A DNA stretch of 50,356 bases from a virus, in the IMG/VR virus record IMGVR_UViG_3300048823_000117, positions 1 to 50,356 of that record. One strand, written 5' to 3'. How positions within the stretch are numbered: position 1 is the stretch's first letter; the number at the start of each line of letters is the position of its first letter. A model generated the notes under the pieces. That model was not told the origin of the DNA and did no database searches. It saw nothing but the letters and a program-made list of their open reading frames with translations. The position numbers and the translations under genes are program-made. This document shows, one piece after another, positions 5,701 to 50,356 of this stretch.

Positions 5701-6558
5701 CTACAGCCCCATACAGGTCAGTATAAAGTGGTTATCCTGAAAAGCGATCGAAACGTTGAACATAAAGAGTGAGATAATAAACGGAGGTGACGAGCCAACC
5801 TCCAGCGATTCGACGCTATTACCATTCGCCCCGCCTCCGGCACCCGAGCCTGGCGAGACAGTACAAGCTGGCGGCTGGGTGAACTGTCCTGTCAGCGGGA
5901 CGATCTGATACTGCCCCGTACCCAACCTCGTGCAAGTGAAGTTCCCCGGTTGGAACCCAGAGATCGCAATCTGCGTATCCTGTATACAACCCCCGACTCC
6001 ATCCCAGCCGCCAAAGGCGACCTTCGGCCAGGGGACGCTCGTCGCCCGAGGGAAAGTAACTGCACCGGCTTGGTTAATACACTCAACAGAGCCCAGAGCG
6101 GCAGTAAAGACTGAATAAGTCCCTGGTGCGGCGCCGTTACAGTACCCCGAGATTGTATCCCACTCGACGTTCCCTGCCTGTCCATCGACCAGCCCGTAGG
6201 AGCTCGCCGTGGCAGTCGGCGATTGATTCTTCACAATTCCTGTACCAATAGTCACTCCACCCGATGAGCCAACTATCCCTACTGGGCCTAACAGCATATT
6301 TCCGGTTAGCACCGATAGGCTTGGAGCAATCAGCTGCTGCGAAAACGCCACGTTGCCTGTAAACGTAAGGTTCTGCGCGACCAGCCAGGCGGCGATCTGC
6401 GACAAGGTCATTTTCTTCGTCGCACCCGACTGTACCACCGGGAACGGCTCAAGGCCAGTAGTCGAGGTACTAGCCGCTGGCAGCGCTGAAATTGGCGTCT
6501 GCGCTTGGGCCAGTCCACAAGCCAGCAACAATACCCCTAGGGCTAAAATGCGCTTCAT
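5701..6558 (-). CDS. Secreted tail-fibre-like protein with Sec signal peptide
   Basis: The protein has 285 residues from ATG 6558, chosen because AGGAGA lies 5-10 bases upstream; an earlier in-frame codon at 6609 would bury the signal peptide. Residues 1-20 (MKRILALGVLLLACGLAQAQ) are a textbook Sec signal with an AQA cleavage site. The mature N-terminus, TPISALPAASTSTTGLEPFPVV then TKKMTLSQIAAWLV, matches a motif common near the N-termini of phage tail-fibre-like proteins. The C-terminus is beta-rich with Gly/Ser loops. A signal peptide on a virion-like protein is odd; similar leaders occur at 25348-31964. Confidence 0.8.
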   Translation of the reverse strand: MKRILALGVLLLACGLAQAQTPISALPAASTSTTGLEPFPVVQSGATKKMTLSQIAAWLVAQNLTFTGNVAFSQQLIAPSLSVLTGNMLLGPVGIVGSSGGVTIGTGIVKNQSPTATASSYGLVDGQAGNVEWDTISGYCNGAAPGTYSVFTAALGSVECINQAGAVTFPRATSVPWPKVAFGGWDGVGGCIQDTQIAISGFQPGNFTCTRLGTGQYQIVPLTGQFTQPPACTVSPGSGAGGGANGNSVESLEVGSSPPFIISLFMFNVSIAFQDNHFILTCMGL

Positions 6559-6568
6559 AGTTGTCTCC

Positions 6569-7204
6569 TTAAGTACTAACACTTGCAGTCGCCGTCGATA
6601 CGCCACCAAGGCTATCGACGATGGTTACTTCCAGTACACCGTTGACTGGGCTAGCCAAGGCGAACAGTTGGGTACCGACTGAATTGGGGGAGAGAATCTG
6701 AATCCCTGCCCCGCCGGAAGCCCAGGTCCAGTTAATCGACGTCACAAACACACCTTGACTCGGATCCCCCGCGTCAACCGAAGCGACCCAAGGGGGTAAG
6801 ACCGCAGCCGCAAACCCCTGGAACGATCCCGCTTCAGTTACCAGGTCACTCCCTCCTTCAGTAGTTAGGAACGATCCGACTTCAGTCGTGATTGGGGTTT
6901 CGCCCATCTCGGCGAGCTGAATTACATTCGGCCTGATGACGAGGGGGAAGCCTAGATTGAGCTGCCGGAAGTTAACAATCGGGGGCTGTACCCTCGGTAC
7001 CGACATATGCTCAGGGATTCCCCGGACGAACTCTTGAGGGTGTCGGCGGTCGGCGTGCTCAGGACAGCACCACATCTTTCGGGCGAACTCGTCGTCAGTT
7101 ATGAGTTCGTTCGATTTCCTTTTCCTGCCACAGTATGCACACATGACGTTCCAGGCGCCAAGTTCAAGGAAATCGCGGCCTCCTTTTGTAAAGCCGTTAC
7201 CCAT
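6569..7204 (-). CDS. Zinc-finger plus beta-domain virion-associated protein
   Basis: The protein has 211 residues. The N-terminus carries a probable zinc site, CAYC (about 22-25) and CCPEH (46-50), then RRHPQEFVRGIPE, a combination I associate with conserved small proteins of podophage virion modules. The C-terminal half has short repeats (TTEVGSF, TTEGGS, VTEAGSF) and an Ig-like segment with ASVDAGDPSQG and ITSINWTWASGGAG-type turns. It overlaps the upstream ATP-grasp gene by 8 bp. The function is not known. Confidence 0.7.
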   Translation of the reverse strand: MGNGFTKGGRDFLELGAWNVMCAYCGRKRKSNELITDDEFARKMWCCPEHADRRHPQEFVRGIPEHMSVPRVQPPIVNFRQLNLGFPLVIRPNVIQLAEMGETPITTEVGSFLTTEGGSDLVTEAGSFQGFAAAVLPPWVASVDAGDPSQGVFVTSINWTWASGGAGIQILSPNSVGTQLFALASPVNGVLEVTIVDSLGGVSTATASVST

Positions 7205-8522
7205 CAGAGTAGCTCATGCTACGGGCGTAGCCTAAAGACTGCAGTAATGGCAATTCCCCCGCTAACTTCCTGCCCACGTCGGTGCGCATCATTCGGTTAG
7301 AAGGCCACCGAACCCCCCACGCAACGCCATATGCGGCCATAGCGGCCGATTCTACCGTAGGACCGCTTCCTGTGACCACCGCCACGTACGTCCCCGCCGT
7401 TGTGAGACATCGCCTGTGACGGAGGTTTCCATCGTCGTCGATGACTGGTTCCATGCCCATCCGCACCATCTGCCAGTGGATGTGATTCGCCGACTCCTCG
7501 TCGAAGTGTATCGGGAACCCAGACCACTTCTCGTGCGGGTCGTTTGAGATTGGGTAGTCGCCGTGGGTCATTACAACGCCGACTGCGATATCAGGTCGGG
7601 GGTTAAACTCATCCCGGCCGGCAAGCATCGCTGCCATCCACTCGACAGGGTCGTGGTCGATTACCTCTTGGCGGATGTTGAAGTCAGGCCAGCCTAACCT
7701 CGAGGTGAACTCCAACGGCCACGGCGTTCCGTCCGAGTCCACAATGCAGTTCACCGAACAATCTCCCACATACCCAATCTGGTACAGGTAGTCCGTCAAG
7801 GGCTTCAGCACCCGGTCGAACAGCAGAGATTCCTGCACGTGCCGCAGGACGGTTCCCTGCTCGCCGGTGTTCTGCCCCAGGTCGTCGTTGAGGAAGCGTT
7901 TGTGTTCCCAAGATTCCTCCACCATTCGCAACCAGCCCGACTGCGGGCTAAACCAGCCGGCAATCCCGACCTCCACCCCGTCGGCTTTCTTCTGCAGCAT
8001 GAGCTTGCTGTTCAGCCCGGCGTCCCTCCACCGTTCGAGTTGGAAAATCGCTTCTTCCGGCGAATTGGCGACACAGGTAAGGGACTTATCGCCTTCCCCT
8101 CCCCAGGGCTTGATGACAACTGGCTCCCTCGAGGCGACGACATACTCAATTGCATCATTGAGATTCTCGACAGTAACATACGGCAGAATCTGAACTCCTT
8201 GAGACTGGAGCACTTGCTGTCCGAGAGCCCGGTCAAGTTCAAGCTGCGCGCTCGCCGCATTGGCGCCAAAGATAGGGTAACCAGATTCAAAGTACGGTTC
8301 GAGTTTGTTGGCATAGCGAGAATTCCCGTTGACGATTACCAAATCGCTCCCGTCCATTAAGGGTTCCCAGTCTCGCGGGCGATCAACCAGCCCCTCGCCG
8401 AAGGTTAGTTCTTGGCGGCTGGGCGGTAGCCAGTACCTGACATCATGCCCCCACTCCTTCGCTCGCAGGGCGATTCCCAGCCCCGTTGCCTCGCCCTCGA
8501 CTTCGATGATCAGTATTCTCAC
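7197..8522 (-). CDS. PurD-like ATP-grasp ligase
   Basis: The 441-residue protein has the layout of phosphoribosylamine-glycine ligase (PurD): an N-terminal Rossmann-like start (MRILIIEVEGEATGLGIALRA), an ATP-grasp core with VVIKPWGGEGDKS near 135, and the Mg/ATP-binding strand PLEFTSRLGWPD near 270. PurD joins glycine to phosphoribosylamine in purine synthesis. Here the gene is embedded between an ejection-protein gene and a virion-protein gene with 4-8 bp overlaps, far from any nucleotide genes, so it may instead modify a phage or host product. No other purine gene is present in the genome. Confidence 0.8.
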   Translation of the reverse strand: MRILIIEVEGEATGLGIALRAKEWGHDVRYWLPPSRQELTFGEGLVDRPRDWEPLMDGSDLVIVNGNSRYANKLEPYFESGYPIFGANAASAQLELDRALGQQVLQSQGVQILPYVTVENLNDAIEYVVASREPVVIKPWGGEGDKSLTCVANSPEEAIFQLERWRDAGLNSKLMLQKKADGVEVGIAGWFSPQSGWLRMVEESWEHKRFLNDDLGQNTGEQGTVLRHVQESLLFDRVLKPLTDYLYQIGYVGDCSVNCIVDSDGTPWPLEFTSRLGWPDFNIRQEVIDHDPVEWMAAMLAGRDEFNPRPDIAVGVVMTHGDYPISNDPHEKWSGFPIHFDEESANHIHWQMVRMGMEPVIDDDGNLRHRRCLTTAGTYVAVVTGSGPTVESAAMAAYGVAWGVRWPSNRMMRTDVGRKLAGELPLLQSLGYARSMSYSDG

Positions 8523-20102: not shown

Positions 20103-20546
20103 CTAGTGGGGGTATTCGACAACTGCTGCTTCTTCGACAATCTTAACGAAGATATCTTCCTCGTTAACCATGCGGTACTGCTTGCCGTTTAGAGTGCCAA
20201 CGACGATTGCACCCGAGTACTTCTGGACCAGGATCTTATCCCCCGGGAGGCACCTCGGCCGCCAAGGAGTCATCAGCCGACGCAACCAAGTCGCATTCTC
20301 CGGCCGGTACGCCTCGCTTCCAAGTGCCACCACAATCGCCCTCATCTCGACCATGATCGAGTTGTTACGAAGGTTATCGGGGATGATGAGTCCGCTTCGC
20401 CTGGCGGCGTCGAAGTCCGGTTCATAAGGTTCTAGGAGAACCGCGTGGCCTACCGGCTGTAGGCCCGAAGGGTTCAGACACTCCGGCCGGCGGTTTGAGG
20501 CCTTTATCCTCAGACTCCCCGGTATAATTTGCATAAAACTCAGCAT
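20103..20546 (-). CDS. GroES-like co-chaperonin (Cpn10 domain)
   Basis: The 147-residue protein (or 143 from a second ATG at 20534, which has the better spacing to a GAG site) has an unusual 25-residue lead-in. Then comes a Cpn10-like domain: LQPVGHAVLLEPYEPDF, MRAIVVALGSEA, CLPGDKILVQKYSGAIVVGTL and YRMVNEEDIFVKI, matching the GroES strands around the PGD ... VLF.KY.G.E turn and the final EEDI(L). Phage co-chaperonins such as T4 gp31 help fold the capsid protein with host GroEL. Its position among capsid genes supports this. It overlaps the gene at 20422 by 125 bp. Confidence 0.82.
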   Translation of the reverse strand: MLSFMQIIPGSLRIKASNRRPECLNPSGLQPVGHAVLLEPYEPDFDAARRSGLIIPDNLRNNSIMVEMRAIVVALGSEAYRPENATWLRRLMTPWRPRCLPGDKILVQKYSGAIVVGTLNGKQYRMVNEEDIFVKIVEEAAVVEYPH

Positions 20547-22759: not shown

Positions 22760-22941
22760 CAGTTAGCATTCTCACAGTTCTTGCAACGGGGCAATGGACT
22801 CCGACTGGCGGTCCACCATAACCAGCCCTTGCTGACGTACAGTCCACAGGCGGTTAGTCCTTCACTATGCGACTTACCGTACATTATGTGCTTGACCTTG
22901 CCAAGCGGCCGAGCTACGTAGAAGAAACGTTTCATACTCAA
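22759..22941 (-). CDS. Small Cys-containing protein between portal and terminase
   Basis: The protein has 58-60 residues. TTG 22941 forms a TTGA overlap with the terminase stop, and ATG 22935 lies two bases after it; I cannot decide between them. The sequence HSEGLTACGLYVSKGWLWW ... RCKNCENAN has three Cys and a His suitable for one zinc. Its end abuts the portal start. Confidence 0.6.
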   Translation of the reverse strand: MSMKRFFYVARPLGKVKHIMYGKSHSEGLTACGLYVSKGWLWWTASRSPLPRCKNCENAN

Positions 22942-24416
22942 TATCCCGTCACTTGGTTGCGACCTTCAGCCTGTCGCGCAGCATTACCGCCGGCGATCCA
23001 GTCGAGTTCCTCGTCAGTCACATCATCCTCAGGTTCGACCTCTGGCATAGAATCAGTTCCGATGACGAGCCAGGCGGTGGAGTCGAAATCGTCATCCTCA
23101 AGGGCTTCGGCCTCGGCGGTGAACAAGAGCATCACAGATTCGTACTCGGGGTACCAGTCGGCGTCTTTGTCAAACGACATACCCTTGTTTTTCATTCGCT
23201 TCTGCATCGGTCGGCCGCGAGCAGCTTTGTCCTTAGACGCAGTCTTCGGCTCGATGTTGAGGTAGATGTTCCGCGAGCGCATTTCGGCTTCAAGGGTCGA
23301 CTTGAGCGTCAACCAGATCTGCCCCGACTCGACGAAGAAGAACTCTGGGTTCCAGCGAACCTGGATTGAGAAGAACTCCTCAATCAGCTGCGAACCATCC
23401 ATGCGGCCCTTTCGGCGGTCGACCACGTCCAGATGGCCGCCAATACATCGCCGACCTACGGTGAAGACGGAATTGTTCGCGCTATCCGCTTGGCTGATGG
23501 CCAAGTCCACACCCACTGCGAACCGACCGAAGCGCTCTTTTTCGTGCTCTTCAAGGGCGATGAACCATTCCTTTTTCAGATAAGCGTCTTCACGGTCCCG
23601 AGGCGCGTTCAGGTACTCGCACGAGTAACCAGCCGGATCCTTCGCGTCTATGAACTCTTGCTGCCGGCGGCGGAGTTCCGCCTCGTTGAACCTCGACGGC
23701 CAAAGAATGGCGCTAAAATTGCTGTAGCTTGCATGGGCTCGATAGATCCTATGGGTCCACGACTTACTATGGGTAAGATTCCACAGTAACGAGTCATCGT
23801 GAAGAATCGTCCCGTGGATTCGGGACAGACCGCCCTCGCCAAGGAGCTGCTTCGCCACTCGGAAGAACCACGCACGGAACGCCTTACGGGTCTCGGTAGT
23901 TGAAACGTTTTCCTCTGATTCAAGATCGTCTCCAAGGAGTAGGTCCGGCCGCATTCCGAGCCATAGCATGCCACGGATCTTCTGCCCGCTGCCCTTGGCG
24001 GAGATTCGGAACTTGTACCCGTCGGTACACTCGACGATGATGTCGGTCTGAGTATCGACGATGAAGTCTTTAATGCCGAAGTCCCGGCGCAGGGCCTCGT
24101 TGTTCTTCAGCGCATCTACCGACCGACCGAGGTGCTCGATCGCCAGGGCCTCGCTCGCGCTGAACAGTACCACGTACCTGCGCCAGCGGAACAGCACAGC
24201 CGCCAGCATGAACGCATCGGTGAACGCGGATGACTTCCCGTGCTTACGAGGAGCCGCCAGGGCGACGTTTTCGTCCGACGCATCGCAGTACAGAGCCCAT
24301 CCCTCCCGGTGCATACCGCACACCGGGTGGGGCTGATCGTACCCAGGGCTCAGGTAAGCCCCGGCGAAATTCTCGATCAGCTGCGCGTCGAGCGCAATGA
24401 GACCCTGGCCCTTCAC
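22938..24416 (-). CDS. terL: Terminase large subunit
   Basis: The 492-residue protein drives DNA packaging and cuts the concatemer. The ATPase domain has Walker A APRKHGKSS (55-63), Walker B PDLLLGDDLESE (157-167) and a coupling SRIHGTILHDDSL segment. The RNase H-like nuclease begins at VGVDLAIS (Asp304), followed by FFFVESGQIW (Glu) and MSFDKDADWYP (Asp). It is encoded well away from the small subunit gene, with the signal-peptide cassette between them. It overlaps the next gene upstream by 4 bp. Confidence 0.92.
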   Translation of the reverse strand: MKGQGLIALDAQLIENFAGAYLSPGYDQPHPVCGMHREGWALYCDASDENVALAAPRKHGKSSAFTDAFMLAAVLFRWRRYVVLFSASEALAIEHLGRSVDALKNNEALRRDFGIKDFIVDTQTDIIVECTDGYKFRISAKGSGQKIRGMLWLGMRPDLLLGDDLESEENVSTTETRKAFRAWFFRVAKQLLGEGGLSRIHGTILHDDSLLWNLTHSKSWTHRIYRAHASYSNFSAILWPSRFNEAELRRRQQEFIDAKDPAGYSCEYLNAPRDREDAYLKKEWFIALEEHEKERFGRFAVGVDLAISQADSANNSVFTVGRRCIGGHLDVVDRRKGRMDGSQLIEEFFSIQVRWNPEFFFVESGQIWLTLKSTLEAEMRSRNIYLNIEPKTASKDKAARGRPMQKRMKNKGMSFDKDADWYPEYESVMLLFTAEAEALEDDDFDSTAWLVIGTDSMPEVEPEDDVTDEELDWIAGGNAARQAEGRNQVTGY

Positions 24417-25021: not shown

Positions 25022-25351
25022 CTAGTTAAGGGGCGGCTTAATCGCAAGCGCCGCAGTTTTAGTAATGACTCGAGCGAGGTTAGTCGTGGCGGTCACGACG
25101 ACTTGATAAATTGTGCCTAACACACCTGCGGACAAGACGACCGCTACTACCGCCGGAACGCCAGCGTAGTTGTTAAGAATGTTCTGCCCAGTGATGATTG
25201 CCTGAGGGTTAAGGTCATTGCCGCTGTAGACAGTTGAAGTCATAGTCACAACATTAACCGACTCGCCCGTGGCCAATTCGTCGGTGCAGTCCGCGTATCG
25301 AACCACCGTCTCTCCAATGGTCTTCGGCTTCCAGTCAAGTTTCCCGCTCAT
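25022..25351 (-). CDS. Small virion protein, beta-domain
   Basis: The 109-residue protein reads like a single Ig-like or fibre-base domain: KPKTIGETVVRYADCTDEL, GESVNVVTMTSTVYSG, then a hydrophobic middle (VPAVVAVVLSAGVLGTIYQVVVTATT). The order of a conserved opening and an Ig-like end is common in small tail-fibre or capsid-decoration proteins. It overlaps the gene upstream by 4 bp. Confidence 0.6.
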   Translation of the reverse strand: MSGKLDWKPKTIGETVVRYADCTDELATGESVNVVTMTSTVYSGNDLNPQAIITGQNILNNYAGVPAVVAVVLSAGVLGTIYQVVVTATTNLARVITKTAALAIKPPLN

Positions 25352-27240
25352 TTACATGCAGCGTAGTTAGTCGGACAGGCGCCATTGATACGCCAACCAG
25401 CAGAGTTAATAGCAGTGCGTACTCCAGCTAAAGTCTGGGTCGAATTGCCATTTGTCTGCGTGTCGATCCAGATAAAATGGGTTACTCCCAGGTTGCTGAA
25501 TCCATAGCTTTCGGTACCCGCTGAGGTCTGATTGGTCCAAGAGTAAGCGTTCGCCTGGACTTGGAACCCTAACGGCACCTTGCCCTTGAAGACGTTCGTG
25601 CCATAACTGCTACCCTCGCCCTGCACAATAGCCTCACCCGAGGTCTCGCATTGTGTGGTACTGGTTGCGGTACAGTGGGGGGTGGTCGCTCCGTAAGGAG
25701 TTAGATAGATGACATCGGGTCCACCAAATCCCCAGCCAGTATTGCCGGCGATAACAGGGAAGCGGGCGGCCATCGTAGAGAGCGCTTCACCCTGAATGCC
25801 CCAGTTGTCGTTGAAGAACTTGTTGGTCGTCGGCCACGAGACTGACAGAGCAGTGGCCATAGCTTCGTACTGGGTTTGATAAGCACTGGCTGAATAGTCA
25901 GCCGGCTCAGACCCAGGACCAGAACTGTTCCAAGTCAAGCCAGTTTCGGGTATAGGGACTATTCCCTCGACGTTCGGGTTGCCGTCGTACTTCTTGCCGA
26001 GGTAGTTAAACAGATTTATATAGGCCGTCATCGTGGCAGGACGCCACAAGGCTACGGTGGCGGTGTTCTGAGTACGGACGAGATCAGTACCGAAGCCGCC
26101 TACGCCTGTAATGATGTAGTCAGGGGCGATTGAGGAGCTATTGTTGGAGGCGCCATAAGGCGCCCCCTGTGGAACGGTCGGAAGAGTACCAGGTGCCTGC
26201 CAGTACTCGCTCATTACGAGGATGATTAACTTGTACGTTACACCATCAGCCGCACTGGCTGAAGCCAGAGTAGCTAAGTCAGTATCAATCAGTATAGTGT
26301 TATAAACCGTACTGCTTACACCAGCCGGCAGGGTACCGCCTCCAGCCGTCCCGTCGGTCGGCCCGCCAGTTGGCTCGAGATAGAACCAACTATAGTCGTT
26401 CTCGATCCCTTTGAACCCGGGCTTTCCGGTCGCAGAGTTAATTGACCCCCGCATATCTGGGCCAAAGGAGGACCAGTTTGTTGATTGGTTCGTCGGGTTG
26501 ATCGGCGCTTGGCTAAGCGCTACCGGGTAATTAAAGTAGTGGCCAGGAGTCCACTTGATAGCAACCACTCCACTGGGCGGAACGCTTGTACCGAGATACA
26601 TCCCCGACCAGTTGGCCAGGACGACGTCAGTCGGCGCCTGGCCGTTCGAGTTGATAATCAACCCTGGTTGGCCAGAAGCAATCGACGAGTCGGTATAGTT
26701 AAAAGCGGCGACCTTAGTCCCGCGAAGGGTGACGTATAGGCTGGTGCCTTGAGCACAAACGCCGACGAGGTCGCCGGAATTAACTGTCTCGGTAGTCGCT
26801 GTAACGAGGGTTGTGACCGAGCCAGCTATGTTCTTGAACAGTAACATGCTTGCGGTGGCGCCTAGAGGGCCAGTCACCGCTACCCCGTAGAAGGTGCTGG
26901 CGGACGAGCTACTGCGAACCAGGACCTGGAAACTGGCTGAGCTAACTGCGTTCAAAGTGTTGACTTGAACCTGCGAGCACTGGTCGTTGGGGTAAGCGAT
27001 GTTGAACTGATTCCCGCAGTCAGTCACACCGACGTGCGAGCACTGGAGGGTATTGCTCACTACGCTTAGCGTAACATCGGACAATCCACCATTAACTACT
27101 ACCCAGTTCGACTGGCCGGACAGATTGCCGTTCGCGTAAGAGAACTTGTCCAGGGATAGAATGTTCCAATAGAACGCCGCCTGCGGCAAGGCCGTCGAGG
27201 CGACGAAGGTCAAGACCAGGGCAATTAACAAACGACGCAT
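25348..27240 (-). CDS. Secreted glycoside-hydrolase-like protein with lectin-like N-domain
   Basis: The 630-residue protein starts at ATG 27240 with GGAAA upstream and a 1-bp overlap with the previous stop. Residues 1-20 are a Sec signal (MRRLLIALVLTFVASTALPQ). A beta-rich, concanavalin-like domain follows (about 30-215), then a TIM-barrel-like domain with KLIILVMSEYW, YDGNPNVEGIVPIPETGLTW (Glu near 435, a strand-4-like acid/base position) and DVIYLTPYGATTP. This layout suggests a polysaccharide-degrading enzyme. It could act as a virion depolymerase or as an exported enzyme; the signal peptide favours export at some stage. Several paired Cys also suit a periplasmic or secreted protein. Confidence 0.65.
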   Translation of the reverse strand: MRRLLIALVLTFVASTALPQAAFYWNILSLDKFSYANGNLSGQSNWVVVNGGLSDVTLSVVSNTLQCSHVGVTDCGNQFNIAYPNDQCSQVQVNTLNAVSSASFQVLVRSSSSASTFYGVAVTGPLGATASMLLFKNIAGSVTTLVTATTETVNSGDLVGVCAQGTSLYVTLRGTKVAAFNYTDSSIASGQPGLIINSNGQAPTDVVLANWSGMYLGTSVPPSGVVAIKWTPGHYFNYPVALSQAPINPTNQSTNWSSFGPDMRGSINSATGKPGFKGIENDYSWFYLEPTGGPTDGTAGGGTLPAGVSSTVYNTILIDTDLATLASASAADGVTYKLIILVMSEYWQAPGTLPTVPQGAPYGASNNSSSIAPDYIITGVGGFGTDLVRTQNTATVALWRPATMTAYINLFNYLGKKYDGNPNVEGIVPIPETGLTWNSSGPGSEPADYSASAYQTQYEAMATALSVSWPTTNKFFNDNWGIQGEALSTMAARFPVIAGNTGWGFGGPDVIYLTPYGATTPHCTATSTTQCETSGEAIVQGEGSSYGTNVFKGKVPLGFQVQANAYSWTNQTSAGTESYGFSNLGVTHFIWIDTQTNGNSTQTLAGVRTAINSAGWRINGACPTNYAACK

Positions 27241-28301
27241 CAGGTTTCCCCTGTGCCAGTGGTATGCCAGCCGGTCGTCGTATCCTTGTCAATTGACACG
27301 TCGGCTCCAGCCGCAAGCGTCCGACTCCCTGTCGTATTCACCGGGCTGAATGTCAGGGTATCGCTTACGATCTGCAGGGTCACAACCGCCGACGCGGCTG
27401 AGACGTAGATGCGGATCTTGGTCGGCACGACGAAGGCGACCGACGAGTTCGCTGGGATCGTCTCGGTGCAGGCAGAGGCGCAGTTGATATAGATCTTATT
27501 ATTAGCGTCTCCAATCGCCATAGTATCGTTGCCAGTCACATTACGCTGGGTAACCGCGCCGCTAGGCGTTGAACAGTTCGCAGCACCAGCCGTCGTGACG
27601 CCAGTAGCAAATTGGCCGCCAGTACACTGACTAGGAGATGAGGCTAAGGCGGCGGCGGTCGAGGCGGCGATTGTCCCTGTCCCAGTGAAGGACATTGAGC
27701 AGCCAGTCCCACAAACCATCGCGGCGATAGTGTTGGTTGAACTGGTAATCGAGCTAAACGCGCTCGAGCTCCCCGAGCCGCAGGCAGCGCCCGAGTCAAC
27801 CGCTACTCCAAGGGCAGACCACTGCATACAGTGGCCGGAGGTTATACCGCCATTGAAGATAACCAAGGCGCAGTTAATCAGCGAAGTGCAACCCGTTCCA
27901 CCGTTTACTTGTGGGAGGACCCCATTAAAGGCGTTTGCTGTTATGTTGCCACTGAGCTGGCAAGAACTGTTACAAATCATTACGGCTGTGGCGTTAGTGC
28001 CGCCAGTTACCAAGGCCCAGCTCGAGCCACCTGCTCCTGTACCACAAGGCGCTCCAGCGTCGCCGATAGTCGTTGAGGTGAAGAACTTGGCGCAATCGTT
28101 CGGCGTCGGCGAGGCGACGATCAGGGCCTGCTGCATGTACGCAAGGAACATCGAAAAGGTGCACTTGCTAGTCGTGCCGGACTGATCGCAGATAGAGTAA
28201 TCGCTGCCGGAAATCGACCCGCCTAAGGGTAAGTTCTGCACCGAGACTTGAGCAAAGGCTAATACCGGCAACAGGGCTAGCAACAGGAATAGCTTTTTCA
28301 T
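27240..28301 (-). CDS. Secreted tail-fibre-like protein with Sec signal peptide
   Basis: The protein has 353 residues from ATG 28301; ATG 28316 or TTG 28325 would add 5-8 residues and no candidate has a strong ribosome site. The signal peptide is MKKLFLLLALLPVLAFA. The mature start, QVSVQNLPLGGSISGSDYSICDQ, is followed by TSKCTFSMFLAYMQQAL, the same fibre-like ISxLPxxxxxxxxD ... T..SxxxAYL pattern as at 5701, with added Cys. The rest is Gly/Thr/Ser/Ala repeats and a C-terminal beta domain (KIYINCASACTETIPANS). Possibly a receptor-binding or adhesin-like fibre. Confidence 0.75.
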   Translation of the reverse strand: MKKLFLLLALLPVLAFAQVSVQNLPLGGSISGSDYSICDQSGTTSKCTFSMFLAYMQQALIVASPTPNDCAKFFTSTTIGDAGAPCGTGAGGSSWALVTGGTNATAVMICNSSCQLSGNITANAFNGVLPQVNGGTGCTSLINCALVIFNGGITSGHCMQWSALGVAVDSGAACGSGSSSAFSSITSSTNTIAAMVCGTGCSMSFTGTGTIAASTAAALASSPSQCTGGQFATGVTTAGAANCSTPSGAVTQRNVTGNDTMAIGDANNKIYINCASACTETIPANSSVAFVVPTKIRIYVSAASAVVTLQIVSDTLTFSPVNTTGSRTLAAGADVSIDKDTTTGWHTTGTGET

Positions 28302-28434
28302 TGTAAAGTTACTCATATAACTCAATCCCTAATCCGCTTCTACCGGGCACCGGATTAAGATGGGCCATGGCGAAGAAAAAGAAGATGGATGCGCATACCC
28401 GAAATTTAACTACGGGTGCTAGAGGTTCCAACAG
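28302..28434. other. Intergenic gap with a possible 23-codon plus-strand frame
   Basis: This stretch upstream of the fibre-like gene holds a plus-strand frame from ATG 28367 to TAG 28438 (MAKKKKMDAHTR then NLTTGARGSNS). It has no Shine-Dalgarno site and runs against the operon. It may be chance or the remnant of a gene at an insertion boundary. No terminator or promoter is clear. Confidence 0.3.
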
Positions 28435-29289
28435 CTAGTTGGATCCGACGGCGCCAGTGGATAGCAAATAACTGCCCGTAGTGCAGTTGGGCGTCGTGAA
28501 ACTGCCGGTCCCCTCATTCCAATACGAGCCGCTAGTGCCATTCGGAACTGCGAAGACGCCCGTACTGGACCAGAAGGAGTGCGTACACGAGGCGCCGGAT
28601 CCTTCCGTAAACACCAGTCCCGTGGTATCCCAATTATCGTACTGCCCCACCCCGGATGAGCCGAAGGTCGCAGCGTTGGATCCTGTGGAGGTTACCCGCC
28701 TATCCTCGAACAGCACCAGATTCCCGGATGGAGAGAGCCAAGGATTTCCCCTGGTGGTGAACCCGGTTCCAGCGGTGGGTGCCACTCCATTGTTCTCATT
28801 GGCAGTCATACCCCACAGCATGGCTGGCACTGAGGTGATCGAAATCGTCGTGGAGGTCACCGTATCCGTGCCGTTGGTGGTGCCGGCTTGGGTTTGTCCA
28901 ATACACCCGGCATAAGCGCCTAGCCCTGAGTATTCCGATACCAAGATACCCGACAGGCCGCCTACCGCTGTCGCGGTGACGACCGTGGCTCCAGCGGCTG
29001 CGGCCAATACGTAATAGTAAGAAGTGCTGAAAGCAGCCCCCGTGACGGTGCAGGCGGCCGTGTAGGTGTTGCCGTTTCCGGTCACAGTAGCGATAGGTTT
29101 GCCGCTATTTGCGATATAGACGCCAACGATGAGCGTGTCACCGGCAGTCACAGTGATCGAGCTTGCGGCGATGGAACCCACGCCAGATGCGGTGTTGTTC
29201 TGCCCATCTTGAACGTGTGCGTAGGTTGCGAATGCCGGGGATGCAATCGCAAGAAGAAACAGCGCAAGAGTTGCGCGCAGTAGTTTCAC
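28435..29289 (-). CDS. Secreted beta-rich protein with Sec signal peptide
   Basis: The protein has 284 residues from GTG 29289, which makes a GTGA overlap with the previous stop and has AGGGG 8 bases upstream. The signal peptide is KLLRATLALFLLAIASPAFA. The mature part resembles repetitive Ig/fibre domains (ITVTAGDTLIVGVYIANSG, AAAAGATVVTATAVGGLSG) and ends with Cys-containing loops. It pairs with the hydrolase-like gene at 29286, with which it is translationally coupled. The function is unknown; an adhesin or binding partner is likely. Confidence 0.68.
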   Translation of the reverse strand: MKLLRATLALFLLAIASPAFATYAHVQDGQNNTASGVGSIAASSITVTAGDTLIVGVYIANSGKPIATVTGNGNTYTAACTVTGAAFSTSYYYVLAAAAGATVVTATAVGGLSGILVSEYSGLGAYAGCIGQTQAGTTNGTDTVTSTTISITSVPAMLWGMTANENNGVAPTAGTGFTTRGNPWLSPSGNLVLFEDRRVTSTGSNAATFGSSGVGQYDNWDTTGLVFTEGSGASCTHSFWSSTGVFAVPNGTSGSYWNEGTGSFTTPNCTTGSYLLSTGAVGSN

Positions 29290-31271
29290 TGTATGTACCC
29301 CTGGATTGCCTGCCACTTAGCTGGTGCACTGCCAATAGGTGAGATCGTCTGCATGATGCTTTCGAGCGCTCCCCATGCGCCGTTGAAAGTGATCGGCCCA
29401 ACATCTGAGAAGATGTTGTTGATGTTTGTGGAAGTGGCGCCGACGTTGGTCTTCCAATAGTTCAGGTACGTCGTGTATGCAGTGCCCATTCGCGCATCAC
29501 GCTCAGCGCTAATGACAAGTGCAGGCCATCCGCTTGCTGTCCCTGATGATGTCGCATAGAAGTTCTGGCCGCCCTCATAGGCAACGAGGCTCAACGTCGG
29601 ATAGGTCGGCATGATCGCCGTGTAACTGTTTATCTGGCCCTCGATCTGCCCCAGCCATCCACCCGATGGGACGCTCGAATAGCTCTGTGATCCATTACCA
29701 ACGGTGCCTGTTTGGCTGTAGAGGGTTGCAAAGAAGTCATCTAAGGGAGTGGTGACGCCGGTCATCGTCGTGGCATCACCGGAACTTGGATTTCCGCCCC
29801 AGTAAGGAGCTATCGAGAGTGCTTTTACCGGGTAGCTGGTGACCGGCCCGCTTGGCCAATCAGCCGCCGCAATCGCAAGTGTTGCGGTCGCTGTGAAGGA
29901 AGCCTGTCCGCCTAAGACAGGAATACAGTTGGCAAAGAGCGTTGAGCCCACCGCGGTTTGAATGTCGGTGGCCATCTGCGCCACCCGCATGCCGTACCAA
30001 CTGCGGTTATATTCAAATCCACCGGCCGCGGTGTCGGACGGCCACAGCACATATCCTGCGGTAGAGGCAATCGTGTTTTGAGGAAATGCGCCGTTCCACA
30101 CCTCGTTGGAGAACTCAGAGTAGAACTTCAAACCTGAAGTAAGCGCAGAATATCCCGACTGTGCCCCGGTCCCGCTCATGACCAGTTGCGCCCAGCTTTC
30201 TATGTAGGCGTCGGAGGCGTTCACGGGCACGTTCATCCAACAATTGGCACCGATCGCATTGCACATCGCGACCTGGACTTCGTAGGGCACGCCATCCGAT
30301 CGGGTGTACGAAGCATTAGACGGCAGCGCCCGATTCGCCCAGGACTTGGAAATATCGACTGGGAAATAGGGCAGGTAGTTGAACGAGGTCCCCCCGGTCC
30401 AACTGACAGTTGTGCTCCCATAGGTAAAGGATGCCGCCTTTACCTCGCTTTGCGGGGCGCTGTTGCTTAAAGTGCCGAAGTAGATGTTGTAGGTTCCGGT
30501 CGGATACGGCCATGCTTGGTTGAGCGTAAGACCTGTGGCACCTGAGTTGATCTGCGTTCCGCTAGAACACGCGCCAGATGATGCACAGGCTGCCTCGTAG
30601 GCTTGAGCATTCGTGTTGCGCCAGTCCATCATGCGCAATAGCTTGAAGTTAGCCATCGCGGTGAGGAATGATGGGGCAAATATCGCTCCGGCGTTGTAGG
30701 CGGCAACATTGCTGGTCTGAACGATGCTCAGGTTTGTGAGATGGTTTCCTGAAGTTGACGATGTGATATTGACGAAGAGGCCGTTCGTCGTGGCGCTTGA
30801 GACCGTAAAGGTACTTCCGGATGTCGTGATCGTCGCGCTCGCATCCCCTGAAATGACGACTGTTCCGGCACCTGAGAACTGAACGGTGTAACTGCCCGTG
30901 GGGTAATAGAGGCTCTGTCCGGGAGCCAGCGAATATCCGCCAGGTGCCCGATAGACGAGGCAATAGACCTGCGTGCTGGTGAGGCCGCTTTGAGGAATGA
31001 TCAGCGGATAGCCGTCAGAGTCCGTATTGAGCGAGTATTCCTCGCTCGTGTCGCCCCCTCCGTTCGAGGTACTGGTGACCCAGGTAGAATCTAGCGTGTT
31101 GCTGCCGCACATCTTCATGATATTCATGAAGGGAAATTCGGTCGTGAAGTAGTTGACGGAAGTCAGCTCAATGCCTAACGGGTTTACAACTATCGGAACA
31201 GCCCCCCACGGGCGCGCGAAAGTGGGCAGCGATGCCGTCAAACACAGCAGAACCGGAAGTAAGCGCTTCAT
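29286..31271 (-). CDS. Secreted clan GH-A glycoside-hydrolase-like protein
   Basis: The 661-residue protein has a signal peptide (MKRLLPVLLCLTASLPTFA), a beta-sandwich region (about 100-180), and a TIM-barrel-like region with FKLLRMMDWRNTNAQ (210-223), FYSEFSNEVWNG (Glu390, an NE acid/base) and LVAYEGGQ (Glu566, a candidate nucleophile). NE on strand 4 and E on strand 7 is the clan GH-A arrangement. The substrate cannot be read from sequence; a capsule or exopolysaccharide is a reasonable guess. A lack of tail-attachment motifs and the signal peptide are unusual for a phage depolymerase. Confidence 0.72.
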   Translation of the reverse strand: MKRLLPVLLCLTASLPTFARPWGAVPIVVNPLGIELTSVNYFTTEFPFMNIMKMCGSNTLDSTWVTSTSNGGGDTSEEYSLNTDSDGYPLIIPQSGLTSTQVYCLVYRAPGGYSLAPGQSLYYPTGSYTVQFSGAGTVVISGDASATITTSGSTFTVSSATTNGLFVNITSSTSGNHLTNLSIVQTSNVAAYNAGAIFAPSFLTAMANFKLLRMMDWRNTNAQAYEAACASSGACSSGTQINSGATGLTLNQAWPYPTGTYNIYFGTLSNSAPQSEVKAASFTYGSTTVSWTGGTSFNYLPYFPVDISKSWANRALPSNASYTRSDGVPYEVQVAMCNAIGANCWMNVPVNASDAYIESWAQLVMSGTGAQSGYSALTSGLKFYSEFSNEVWNGAFPQNTIASTAGYVLWPSDTAAGGFEYNRSWYGMRVAQMATDIQTAVGSTLFANCIPVLGGQASFTATATLAIAAADWPSGPVTSYPVKALSIAPYWGGNPSSGDATTMTGVTTPLDDFFATLYSQTGTVGNGSQSYSSVPSGGWLGQIEGQINSYTAIMPTYPTLSLVAYEGGQNFYATSSGTASGWPALVISAERDARMGTAYTTYLNYWKTNVGATSTNINNIFSDVGPITFNGAWGALESIMQTISPIGSAPAKWQAIQGYIQ

Positions 31272-31964
31272 TTAATTGAAGTCGCAGTTGAAGCTGATGA
31301 CATCAGTTGTCGCAGCTGCTGCCGGAATCGGCAGCGTCGCCGTCGTGGTGGTGCTGGCCGATTGAATCCAGGCCGGGATCCACGTACCCGCGTTCATGGC
31401 TGTCTGATCCCCTACGCTGCAGTGATAGCCGTACGGTGCAGTGAAGCCAGTAGCGCCGTTTATCTCAATGGTGACCGCCGTGCACGGACCTGAAGCCAAC
31501 GTAAACGTGCCCCCGAACGGCCCTGCGTGCGTGATCGTGGGAGTGCAGCCAGTGCCGCTGATCGTATAGGCGGTGGTGGCGCCGATATCTGCGATAGTGC
31601 TTGCAGAGGCCGCGACGAATGAGGTTCCTCCCGCTCCCGTCTGATACGGGATATTGTTCGCTGCGCCGCCGGCGATGTTGGTGGCTGTACCGACAGTGAC
31701 GGTTGATGCAGCAGTACCCGTGCAATTGGTTGTACTGGTGAAGATGCACAGCTGACCGACAGAGCCAGGACCAATACCAGCGCTTCCACTGCCACAAGCT
31801 GCCCCAGCGTCTGCCAAGACGCCGACCTGTTGCCACTTCGTACAGTCACCAGGAGTAATTGGGGTGATGTAGGTCAGTCCGCTAACCGATCCACCACCGA
31901 CGCCTTGGGCGAACCCGATGATCGGGACCAGGGCTAGGAGGAGCAGGGCGAGTAGGCGGCACAT
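31272..31964 (-). CDS. Secreted fibre-like protein with Sec signal peptide
   Basis: The 230-residue protein has the signal peptide MCRLLALLLLALVPIIGFA. Its mature part resembles a fibre fragment: GGGSVSGLTYITPITPGDC, then Gly/Thr-rich repeats and a C-terminal beta domain (GPCTAVTIEINGATGFT, TWIPAWIQSASTTTTATLPI). Cys residues are paired along the chain. It abuts the next gene (31271/31272). It belongs to the cluster of exported proteins between the two terminase genes. Confidence 0.7.
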   Translation of the reverse strand: MCRLLALLLLALVPIIGFAQGVGGGSVSGLTYITPITPGDCTKWQQVGVLADAGAACGSGSAGIGPGSVGQLCIFTSTTNCTGTAASTVTVGTATNIAGGAANNIPYQTGAGGTSFVAASASTIADIGATTAYTISGTGCTPTITHAGPFGGTFTLASGPCTAVTIEINGATGFTAPYGYHCSVGDQTAMNAGTWIPAWIQSASTTTTATLPIPAAAATTDVISFNCDFN

Positions 31965-31966
31965 GG

Positions 31967-32572
31967 CTAATTCCTGCCCTGTGAGGCGACGAGGAACGCC
32001 TTACCCGCACCAGTGAAGGCGGTACAGATGAGGCGAGACATCCAGACTGGGTAGGCGTAATTGCCAGTTGCGCGAGCTACGAGGCCAGTTAGCGACGGGT
32101 GGGTGAACACGCGGGCGGAGGTCACTCGGGCCTGGAATACGCTTGTCTGGTTAACCGGAGTCACGACGGTGTAGGTATTCACGCCCGTTACCGTAACCGG
32201 GTAGCCAGACTGGTTGCCCGAGTCAACGCCGACTTGCGAGCCCTGGAGGAATACCAAGTCGCCGGTTAGCAGCCCATGACCGAACGGGCCACCCCAGGCC
32301 TGGTTCGACGGTGCGCCGTTAATGGTCTCGGGGCCGTAGTCGGTTATCGTAGCAGTAGTCGAGGCAGACTGAACGCCTTGAACCAGACGCTCAGAGGTCT
32401 GTGACTGGTCGTCGGCGACGTACTGAACCGCAAGAGTGGCGTTGAGGACGCTGTCGAAGAACACGCTCAGCGTGACGTCGAACGGACTCTGCCCAGTGTC
32501 GTGCTTGATCCAGGGGCTTACCGAGGCAGTCCCAGCGACCGCCATGGCGACCTGTTGGATTCGCGTAGCCAT
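31967..32572 (-). CDS. Beta-rich structural protein
   Basis: The 201-residue protein has repeated strands (DVTLSVFFDSVLNATLAVQYVA, YPVTVTGVNTYTVVTPV, GLVARATGNYAYPVWMSRLI) and no signal peptide, unlike its downstream neighbours. It is probably a virion protein such as a decoration or tail component. The start overlaps the upstream stop by one base. Confidence 0.62.
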   Translation of the reverse strand: MATRIQQVAMAVAGTASVSPWIKHDTGQSPFDVTLSVFFDSVLNATLAVQYVADDQSQTSERLVQGVQSASTTATITDYGPETINGAPSNQAWGGPFGHGLLTGDLVFLQGSQVGVDSGNQSGYPVTVTGVNTYTVVTPVNQTSVFQARVTSARVFTHPSLTGLVARATGNYAYPVWMSRLICTAFTGAGKAFLVASQGRN

Positions 32573-32812: not shown

Positions 32813-33331
32813 TTAACCTCCGGCAGCCCCGGAGGCTGCTGACTTAACGACGATCTCGGCATCCGAGACGTCGGGAGACTGGTTGAGGTTGCGCAGATTG
32901 TCGCGCAGCTGATGCAGGTGCAAGTGCATATCCACCCGCTGCGGGGTGCCGGGCAGGTCCCGGGCGCCGTAACCGAGGAGCTTCGAGGTCATCTCGGCCG
33001 ACTTGATGATTAGCTGAGGAGGAATGAGTTCCTCGGGCTGGTCGAGCTTACTCGCCAATAGCCGAAGGCTATTCTTGAGAATCCCCCGGGCTTCTTCCTC
33101 GATCGAGGCGAACCGGAGCTTAAACGCCGCCTGGCGCTCGGGCTCGATTGACTTCTCGATTCGATCCGCAAGGCGGACCTGGAATGCGTCGCTGGCGATC
33201 AGCCGGCTGAGGTAGCTCTGGGTATAGCCAAGGCGCTTGGCCAGCTGCCCCTGCGTCTCGGTCGGGGGGCTAAGTAAGAGCGCATCAACGATCTGCTCAT
33301 AGGTCAACGAGACTGTAGTTATTGGTGGCAA
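32813..33331 (-). CDS. Small terminase-like DNA-binding protein
   Basis: The 172-residue protein is the first gene of the leftward arm. An N-terminal HTH (TQGQLAKRLGYTQSYLSRLIAS, about 25-46) precedes a long helical middle and an acidic/Ala tail. This fits small terminase subunits, which pick the packaging site. The start is uncertain: TTG 33331 has no spaced ribosome site. The same frame is open upstream, and a GGGGGAG site sits 6 bases before an in-frame CTG at 33436, which would add 35 residues. The leftward promoter at 33473-33501 lies upstream of either. Confidence 0.68.
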   Translation of the reverse strand: MPPITTVSLTYEQIVDALLLSPPTETQGQLAKRLGYTQSYLSRLIASDAFQVRLADRIEKSIEPERQAAFKLRFASIEEEARGILKNSLRLLASKLDQPEELIPPQLIIKSAEMTSKLLGYGARDLPGTPQRVDMHLHLHQLRDNLRNLNQSPDVSDAEIVVKSAASGAAGG

Positions 33332-46870: not shown

Positions 46871-47047
46871 TTGAAAAAGTGTTACCATTGCAAACGCATA
46901 ATCTGGCCGTGGCAGGCTCGTTCGTACAGCACGATACCAGAGCACAAACGGTGCGCTGTATTAGCGTTCATCCATGATGCTTACAGAGATCTCCCTATTA
47001 CACAGGCAAGTAACCAAATTGCCCTGTACAGGGAGAGCCAAAAGTGA
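46871..47047 (+). CDS. Small Cys-containing protein
   Basis: The protein has 58 residues from TTG 46871 with GGGGGAA about 6 bases upstream. KKCYHCKRIIWPWQARSY ... HKRC contains a CxxC and an HxxxC-like pair for one zinc. The GTGA junction couples it to the ParB-methyltransferase gene, so the two probably work or are made together. No promoter is visible between it and the terminator upstream. Confidence 0.62.
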   Translation: MKKCYHCKRIIWPWQARSYSTIPEHKRCAVLAFIHDAYRDLPITQASNQIALYRESQK

Positions 47048-48366
47048 AAGTCCATCTGATCGACTTCGAAGAACTCCACATCGAGGAGGGCCGGCAACGA
47101 AAGGACATCTCCGCTGAGGCGATCCTCGAACTGGCCGGCAGCATAACCCACAACGGCCTGATCCACGCTTGTGTAGTCCGCCTTGACGACGAAAACCGAA
47201 CTGTCCTCGTCGCAGGCGAACGTCGTGTAAAAGCGATGGAATACATCTGGAATTTCGGCCAGTCGGTTCGCTATGGCGAATACGATATACCTGCTTATAA
47301 GATCCCGTGTAACTACCTCGGCGAGATCGACCCGATAGCGGCGTTCGAGATTGAGCTTGAGGAAAATATTCGACGTAAGGATATAAGTTGGCAGGAGAGA
47401 GCCCAAGCGGTCGCTCGCCTGGCCAAACTTAAATCTGAACTTGAAGGGGAAGAGCCCTCACCGGCGAGGCTCGCCGAGACCCTAGGGCTGTCCGTCAGTG
47501 GTGGCGGTGGGGGCACCCCTGCCCAAGACGTCCGACAGGACCTCATCCTCGCTCGCCATATGGCCGACCCGGATATCGCGAAGGCGGCTAGCCGGTCGGA
47601 TGCGTTTAAGATCCTCAAGCGCAAGGAAGAAGTAACCCAGAACGCCGCCCTCGGCGCAGCGATCAGCACTCAGACCCTCGCCAACGAGCATAAGCTCCTA
47701 AAGGGGAACTGTCTTGAAATCCTACCTACCCTCCCTGATGCTAGCTTCGACGTTATCCTTAGTGATCCTCCTTATGGCATGGAAGCCCAGGACTTCGGGG
47801 ATTCCGGCGGAACGGGTGGTGCAGTGGGCGGGCACTTCTACGACGACACCCACGACAACTGGATCCGTCTCATGTCTGGCTTGGCAGCAGCGATCGACCG
47901 ACTCGCCAAGCCTCAAGCGCACTTATACCTGTTCTGTGACATCGACAGATTTGCGGCGCTGCGAGATTTCATCGGCGCCAGTGGCGTGTGGAAGTGCTTC
48001 CGCACCCCGCTGATTTGGTTCAACCCAGGAGGTTCTCGTGCACCTTGGCCACAAAACGGACCCCAACGTAAGTCGCAGTATATACTCTATGCTGTCCGGG
48101 GTTCAAAGCCTGTTATTAGTATGCTTGGCGACGTCCTTACTCACGGAAGCGATTCTAACCTTGGACACCACGCACAGAAGCCTGTATCGTTATATAACGA
48201 TTTGCTTCGCCGTAGCGTGCGCCCTGGAGATTCCGTGCTGGATCCTTTTTGCGGGACTGGTACGATCTTCCCGGCCGCCCACGCGCTGAAATGCAAAGCA
48301 ACGGCAATCGAAATGGACGACATGGCCCTTGGAATAGCAGCCGCCCGGCTGAAGGAACTAAAGTGA
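47044..48366 (+). CDS. ParB-like domain fused to a DNA methyltransferase
   Basis: The 440-residue protein joins two parts. The N-terminal ParB/Spo0J domain has box I AGERRVKAM (57-65, the nucleotide-binding GERR) and box II ENIRRKDIS (107-115), then a helical region where ParB has its HTH (ARLAETLGLS), interrupted by a Gly run (GGGGGT). From about 215 a methyltransferase follows with catalytic DPPYGM (241-246) before the AdoMet-binding DPFCGTGT near 405, the beta-class order of N6-adenine or N4-cytosine enzymes. Such fusions are known in phages; the ParB part may guide DNA binding. A parS-type site lies at 34151 in the same genome. Confidence 0.86.
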   Translation: MKVHLIDFEELHIEEGRQRKDISAEAILELAGSITHNGLIHACVVRLDDENRTVLVAGERRVKAMEYIWNFGQSVRYGEYDIPAYKIPCNYLGEIDPIAAFEIELEENIRRKDISWQERAQAVARLAKLKSELEGEEPSPARLAETLGLSVSGGGGGTPAQDVRQDLILARHMADPDIAKAASRSDAFKILKRKEEVTQNAALGAAISTQTLANEHKLLKGNCLEILPTLPDASFDVILSDPPYGMEAQDFGDSGGTGGAVGGHFYDDTHDNWIRLMSGLAAAIDRLAKPQAHLYLFCDIDRFAALRDFIGASGVWKCFRTPLIWFNPGGSRAPWPQNGPQRKSQYILYAVRGSKPVISMLGDVLTHGSDSNLGHHAQKPVSLYNDLLRRSVRPGDSVLDPFCGTGTIFPAAHALKCKATAIEMDDMALGIAAARLKELK

Positions 48367-49884: not shown

Positions 49885-50356
49885 CCAAGGTCCTAATCGT
49901 AGGGGAGGCTCCGGGAGCTGATGAAGAAACATTACAAAGGCCCTTCGTCGGCGTCTCCGGTTGTGAACTCGCCCGCATGTGCGGCGAAGCCGGGTTCCGA
50001 ACCGCCACGACCAGTTGGTCGCCCGCCCTTGGCAAGTACGCCGCCGACTGGTCGGCGTCCGAGTTCACACTTACAAACGTATGCCAGACGCGTCCGCCGG
50101 GCAACGATATTACAGCGTTCTTTGCTAAAGCCAAAAAGGATCGGACGACCTCCCACAAATTACTCCGAGACCGTTATGTTCTTCCTCCGATTAGAGAAGG
50201 ATTCGCCCTTCTTGGCGAAACGATTACCCGCGAGTCGCCGAACCTTATTATTGCAACAGGCAATACGCCGATGTGGGCCCTTACAGGACGCTTTGGTATT
50301 ACAAAATGGCGCGGCAGCCAATTGTACACCGACGGCCAATGCGGACCAGCCGGAAT
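49881..50356 (+). CDS. Uracil-DNA glycosylase / family A DNA polymerase fusion, N-terminal part (continues at base 1)
   Basis: GTG 49881 overlaps the cupin stop (GTGA). The first 170 residues match uracil-DNA glycosylases of the family 4/5 type: motif GEAPGADEE (8-16), FTLTNVCQTRPPGND, NLIIATGNTPMWALTG and the HPAS motif after the junction. The N-terminal CxxC of iron-sulfur family 4 enzymes is not seen, so it may lack the cluster. The frame stays open across the 127-bp overlap into the polymerase, giving an 849-residue fusion. The role may be removal of uracil from the template ahead of synthesis, or merely uracil sensing. Confidence 0.9.
   Translation, partial: MTKVLIVGEAPGADEETLQRPFVGVSGCELARMCGEAGFRTATTSWSPALGKYAADWSASEFTLTNVCQTRPPGNDITAFFAKAKKDRTTSHKLLRDRYVLPPIREGFALLGETITRESPNLIIATGNTPMWALTGRFGITKWRGSQLYTDGQCGPAG
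50230..50356. repeat. Terminal direct repeat, right copy (circular contig overlap)
   Basis: It is identical to bases 1-127 and should be counted once when the genome is closed. Confidence 0.95.

Follow-up and report, generated by a model that had tools for sequence, protein, structure and literature searches.

The stretch of DNA analysed here (the window) is an IMG/VR virus contig of 50,356 nucleotides. Its first 127 bases (1-127) are repeated exactly at its end (50230-50356), and a UDG domain at the end (PF03167) and a DNA polymerase A at the start form one reading frame across the junction, so that the contig is a complete, circularly permuted genome of 50,229 bp in which this gene is a UDG-polymerase fusion. 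The late operon runs on the - strand, and comprises, in order, a presumed terminase small subunit gene (32813-33331), which was inferred only from its position and a helix-turn-helix-like sequence, as a profile search gave no family hit, although genes at this place in relatives look similar. This is followed by two small genes, one of which (31967-32572) encodes a 201-aa protein without a leader at the head of the cassette, with a very weak match to an endosialidase beta-barrel (Pfam PF12195, E 0.047, below cut-off). Next come five consecutive genes with leaders (31964 to 25348), a gene for a gp77-like fibre-tail adaptor without a leader (25022-25351), which overlaps the end of the last leader gene, a 199-aa gene, the terminase large subunit gene (22938-24416; phrog_38, E 7.6e-62) and then portal, GroES-like, capsid and tail genes. 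The adaptor matched Pfam PF23148 with E 2.8e-5, but at 25.0 bits this is just below the Pfam gathering cut-off of 27 and so we call it gp77-like only; the assignment is supported by its relatives, which lie beside fibre genes in related phages. The GroES/Cpn10-like co-chaperonin gene (20103-20546, -) lies downstream of the portal gene and is also annotated at this place in phages MW202796, OK172329 and DSL-LC05. The structural operon also contains a phosphoribosylglycinamide-synthetase-like ATP-grasp protein (7197-8522, -; GARS_A E 9e-8, GARS_C below cut-off), and a fusion of ParB-N to an N6/N4 DNA methylase (47044-48366, +) is found in the gene block of the other strand.

A sixth leader gene lies apart from the cassette at 5701-6558 (-), close to a transglycosylase (SLT) gene. 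It is next to a gene for a small Cys-containing 'RHPQ' protein (6569-7204, -), relatives of which are found next to the gp77-like adaptor in many related phages, whereas in the window the two are separated.

The six leader genes of the window

The initial annotation had claimed that these six genes start with textbook signal peptides and carry paired cysteines, yet have mature parts resembling tail fibres or polysaccharide hydrolases. To test this, we applied a heuristic signal-peptide caller (n-region charge, hydrophobic core and AXA-type site) to the approximately 60 called ORFs of the window. Exactly these six genes, all on the - strand, scored at or above 10 and no other did, each with a positive n-region, a hydrophobic core and an AXA-type site within the first 15-35 residues. 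With the same cut-off 4 of 833 ORFs of terminase-related contigs were flagged, two of them in a contig with the same kind of cassette, so that about 0.3 would be expected in the window by chance. Thus, the observation was confirmed, although the likely starts of three of the genes are internal to the ORFs originally called: 27240 (ATG at 28301), 28435 (GTG at 29289) and 5701 (ATG at 6558, with a strong AAGGAG upstream). We refer to each gene by its lower coordinate.

Gene 25348 (25348-27240) encodes 630 aa with a predicted leader at 27190-27240 (MRRLLIALVLTFVASTA, followed by LPQAAF, or cleaved 4 residues later). The domain directly after the leader (residues 28-190) weakly matches a virion structural protein family (phrog_2804, E 2e-5), whereas the C-terminal part is only motif-like to a glycoside hydrolase. 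Gene 27240 (27240-28301) encodes a tail-fibre-like protein of 353 aa with a leader at 28251-28301 (MKKLFLLLALLPVLAFA, followed by QVSVQNLP), a neck with CDQSGTTSKC and a C-terminal module as in Gordonia phage minor tail proteins. Gene 28435 (28435-29289) encodes 284 aa, with a leader at 29227-29289 of the LASPAFA type followed by TYAHVQ (VKLLRATLALFLLAIASPAFA), and no relatives were found for it. Gene 29286 (29286-31271) encodes 661 aa with a leader at 31215-31271 (MKRLLPVLLCLTASLPTFA, followed by RPWG) and belongs to an unnamed family discussed below. Gene 31272 (31272-31964) encodes 230 aa, with a leader at 31908-31964 (MCRLLALLLLALVPIIGFA, followed by QGVG) and no clear relatives. Gene 5701 (5701-6558) encodes a tail-fibre-like protein of 285 aa with a leader at 6502-6558 (MKRILALGVLLLACGLAQA, followed by QTPISALPAAS), such that the mature part starts at the fibre neck. 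This leader contains a lipobox-like LLAC and that of a protein in another contig, L197 (8167-9573, -), contains a similar motif (LLAC/LLGC), so a lipoprotein fate cannot be excluded for these two. The mature parts of 25348, 27240, 28435, 29286, 31272 and 5701 have 8, 16, 4, 7, 8 and 6 cysteines, respectively, five of the six numbers being even. The resemblance of the mature parts to fibres or hydrolases is therefore supported for three or four of the six: 27240 and 5701 are fibre-like by homology and have the neck, which was not shown for the other four proteins, and 25348 and 29286 have the weaker similarities given here.

Leaders and the fibre neck in other phages

To determine whether this arrangement was private to the window, we first examined 55 terminase relatives. 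Most of these lack leaders in the stretch examined, but one contig (L043) has the same arrangement, with three leaders in a row upstream of its terminase, whereas the closest relative by terminase (L002) has an adaptor and fibre-like genes at this place without leaders. A search of IMG/VR for the pattern A.A followed by QT.I[ST].LP then gave contigs whose leader-bearing proteins begin, right after the predicted cleavage site, with a fibre neck (MKRLFLSAALALFATSAFA, followed by QTKISELPAAGALTGTEEVPAVQ...). Their settings are those of fibre genes: after Baseplate_J and DUF2612 genes (contig L088), next to a Phage_portal_3 gene (L079) or directly upstream of a terminase large subunit (L096, L199 and L200). 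L200 has four leader genes in a row, one of which encodes a protein of 959 aa that is a tail fibre by profile (phrog_18345, E 1e-80), and in a leader-bearing protein of L088 residues 21-63, just after the leader, match positions 3-45 of a tail-fibre family. None of eight such contigs tested, some of which are fragments, has a terminase matching that of the window, so the trait appears to cross phage lineages.

To avoid selecting for leaders, IMG/VR was next scanned for the neck alone (I[ST]xLPA...LxGTE). All 75 hits fell into two classes: 57 proteins start at the neck (MADTKISALPAA... or MADTKISALPAASALAGTE...) and 18 have a leader immediately before it (MKTRILAFTLGLVVATVAFA, followed by DTKISALPAASALAGTE..., or ...AFA followed by DTKISALPAA...), and no third class was seen. 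We do not take 18 of 75 as a population frequency, as several hits are near-duplicates and the scan covered one motif variant only. The distance from the mature N-terminus to the neck is most often 3 residues with a leader and 4 without (after Met removal), and the part of the neck not fixed by the scan is kept in both classes. Cleavage would therefore restore the normal fibre N-terminus to within about one residue. In cultured phages the same neck (ISxLP...GTE..P.VQ) stands at the start of ordinary tail fibres, in the same gene neighbourhoods, without a leader and with few or no cysteines (phage DSL-LC05 WJZ48167, Erwinia phage Special G gp306 and Salmonella phage SA002). The leader is thus a module added at, or lost from, the native N-terminus. 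A second family, a TEF/TEY protein of roughly 100 aa, shows the same: in a leader-blind scan 36 of 37 members start at the motif (MAKLYITEF...) and one has a leader (...ALA followed by DVLYITEF...), and the leader forms found elsewhere lie in contigs with leader-bearing fibres. The export state therefore appears to be a property of the cassette.

Absence of signal peptides in homologues had been set beforehand as a result that would count against the initial annotation, and here the answer was mixed: homologues of the mature parts exist both with and without leaders, which shows that the leader is a gain or loss on ordinary fibre proteins rather than a misread start. Chance or misread starts were also rejected on the basis of the exactly six hits in the window, the Shine-Dalgarno support at 5701 and the same junction in unrelated contigs. 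In an attempt to identify a host, the leader-neck pattern was searched for in 84,980 species genomes, which gave five hits, none of them a phage fibre, and the neck pattern was searched for in 399 genomes of the order of a Nitrosospira MAG, which gave none; neither search pointed to a host.

Cysteine parity and the hydrolase-like proteins

If the leader-bearing proteins are exported, their cysteines would be expected to be paired in disulphides. In the window the mature leader proteins have 2.1% Cys against 0.6% in other late proteins (Fisher p 6e-9), and neck fibres have 1.2% with a leader against 0.28% without (Mann-Whitney p 1e-4). More telling was parity. The leader proteins of the cassettes were listed first and counted afterwards: 39 of 41 with any Cys have an even number, compared to 98 of 204 leader-less proteins of the same contigs (Fisher p 2e-9). 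One protein was listed twice in that count, but after collapsing homologues to one per cluster the result was 25 of 27 (binomial p 2.8e-6). Even numbers are expected where all cysteines are paired in disulphides, that is, in an oxidising compartment, and this supports export without relying on the signal-peptide caller alone.

Single-protein searches with the two hydrolase-like proteins found no relatives, and those of 29286 came only through a contig found with the leader-neck pattern. The family of 29286 is present in contigs L080 (32% identity over 433 aa), L110, L111, L113 and L114, with or without a leader (L080 and L110 without, L114 with one at an internal start). In L110 (2460-12316) three leader-bearing fibre genes in a row are followed by leader-less genes, including a 29286 homologue with chitobiase/CHB_HEX_C_1 repeats, such that leader and non-leader proteins are mixed in one operon. 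In six aligned phage sequences two Glu are invariant, in EFSNEVWN and YE motifs 176 residues apart, and these NE- and YE-type contexts look like the acid/base and nucleophile of glycoside hydrolase clan A, although this is suggestive only and any catalytic role is inferred from sequence alone. The predicted core alternates strands and helices, but the AF2 model was too weak to assign a fold (pLDDT 43, pTM 0.46); Foldseek found nothing significant (best E 0.05, with barrels among the weak hits), and there was no Pfam or PDB match. A Smaco_capsid match of 29286, below cut-off, was rejected as a composition match. For 25348 the hydrolase label is weak, as it rests on motif resemblance only and a model of the C-terminal part gave no information (pLDDT 28), whereas the phrog_2804 match favours a virion role.

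Possible roles of the leader-bearing proteins

The initial interpretation, that the proteins may be exported to alter the host surface, to act on neighbouring cells or biofilm, or to assemble on virions after release, was partly supported. What the analysis itself establishes is the presence of the leaders, their exact placement, their recurrence in other phages and the cysteine parity; Sec export, removal of the leader and oxidative folding are strongly inferred, though only from sequence, whereas the arrival of the mature fibres on virions at or after lysis is inferred from architecture only. Of the purposes offered, assembly on virions after release fits best, and we consider it somewhat more likely than not. 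In this view the six genes encode virion accessory proteins (tail fibres, small companions and probably a glycan-cleaving enzyme) made as Sec precursors; leader peptidase would remove the signal peptide at the ordinary fibre N-terminus, the mature protein would fold and form disulphides in the periplasm, and after lysis it would dock through its N-terminal neck, probably via the gp77-like adaptor, onto particles assembled in the cytoplasm. This is suggested by the conserved neck, the fibre-gene positions of the leader fibres, the adaptor-like gene that abuts the cassette and the fact that the complete genome shows no other long fibre candidate in its late operon. Late attachment is physically plausible, as P22 tailspikes can be added to finished heads in vitro. 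However, all of this evidence is from sequence, no tailed-phage virion protein is, to our knowledge, exported by Sec before assembly, and attachment after lysis risks dilution. In addition, two of the six proteins have no usable relatives, 29286 has an odd number of mature cysteines, the adaptor match is just below cut-off, and leader and non-leader fibres coexist in some related cassettes (L110 and L080), so the two kinds may have different roles.

The main alternative, which we regard as less likely but possible, is that fibre-derived proteins are exported to act on their own, coating or trimming the envelope of the infected cell (and so blocking superinfection or re-adsorption to debris) or degrading the matrix around it, without being part of the virion. 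Alteration of the host surface or biofilm is neither shown nor excluded. The support for export, the GH-like motifs of one protein and the mixed cassettes speak for this idea, and there is a precedent in PblB of Streptococcus mitis phage SM1, a phage tail protein that is released by lysis and binds other cells (PMC4508584). On the other hand, the docking neck stays conserved right at the mature N-terminus, which a free effector would not need, the complete genome would then lack an obvious receptor-binding fibre, and an outer membrane would still have to be crossed if the host is diderm. A dual use, in which part of each fibre pool stays in the cytoplasm or attaches to virions at lysis and part works free outside the cell, is compatible with all of the sequence data, and free tailspikes that make plaque haloes are a familiar precedent, but nothing here calls for it and the cysteine parity suggests that the functional form is the oxidised, exported one; we consider it unlikely. 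That the N-terminal segments are uncleaved hydrophobic anchors or virion-docking peptides is very unlikely even though cleavage is only predicted, as they share composition and AXA-type sites but not sequence, homologues do without them and start with the neck, and the cysteine parity would be left unexplained.

Literature searches, limited to open-access text, found no description of leader-bearing tail fibres as a class. The nearest described case of exported fibre proteins is the mosaic adhesive trimer (MAT) family of Bdellovibrio (PMC10769870), in which phage-fibre-like proteins are exported with a signal peptide, but these are encoded by the chromosome of the predator and used on its own surface, whereas the genes described here lie in a phage late operon and no MAT or S74 domain was found in the window proteins. 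The PblA/PblB tail proteins of streptococcal prophages also work outside the producing cell, and a signal peptide was predicted for one pneumococcal PblB (PMC4508584). However, these belong to Gram-positive temperate phage, S. mitis PblB is drawn without a signal peptide and is released by phage-induced permeabilisation, and they do not form a cassette of several leader-bearing fibres. Among phage proteins that use Sec are leader-bearing or SAR endolysins (an endolysin example is in PMC8951688). Spanins and filamentous-phage coat proteins also do so. These serve lysis or membrane extrusion, and none is a tail fibre of a tailed phage. A study of diversity-generating retroelements took the absence of signal peptides on phage target proteins as supporting their phage origin (PMC6199706), which shows how unexpected leaders on such proteins are.

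In the furthest-reaching reading, which we judge about as likely as not, some tailed dsDNA phages assemble their virion in two compartments, the particle in the cytoplasm and the disulphide-bonded fibres and enzymes in the periplasm, joined only at lysis, with the export signal being a swappable module on otherwise ordinary fibre genes; the exact junction between leader and neck makes this idea directly testable. Assembly of tailed phages is described as cytoplasmic, and a leader on a phage gene is usually read as marking a lysis or host-modifying protein. If fibres are exported, their folding, disulphides and attachment need a new account, host range could depend on the Sec, leader peptidase and Dsb systems of the host, and a group of uncultured phages has receptor-binding proteins that current models do not expect.
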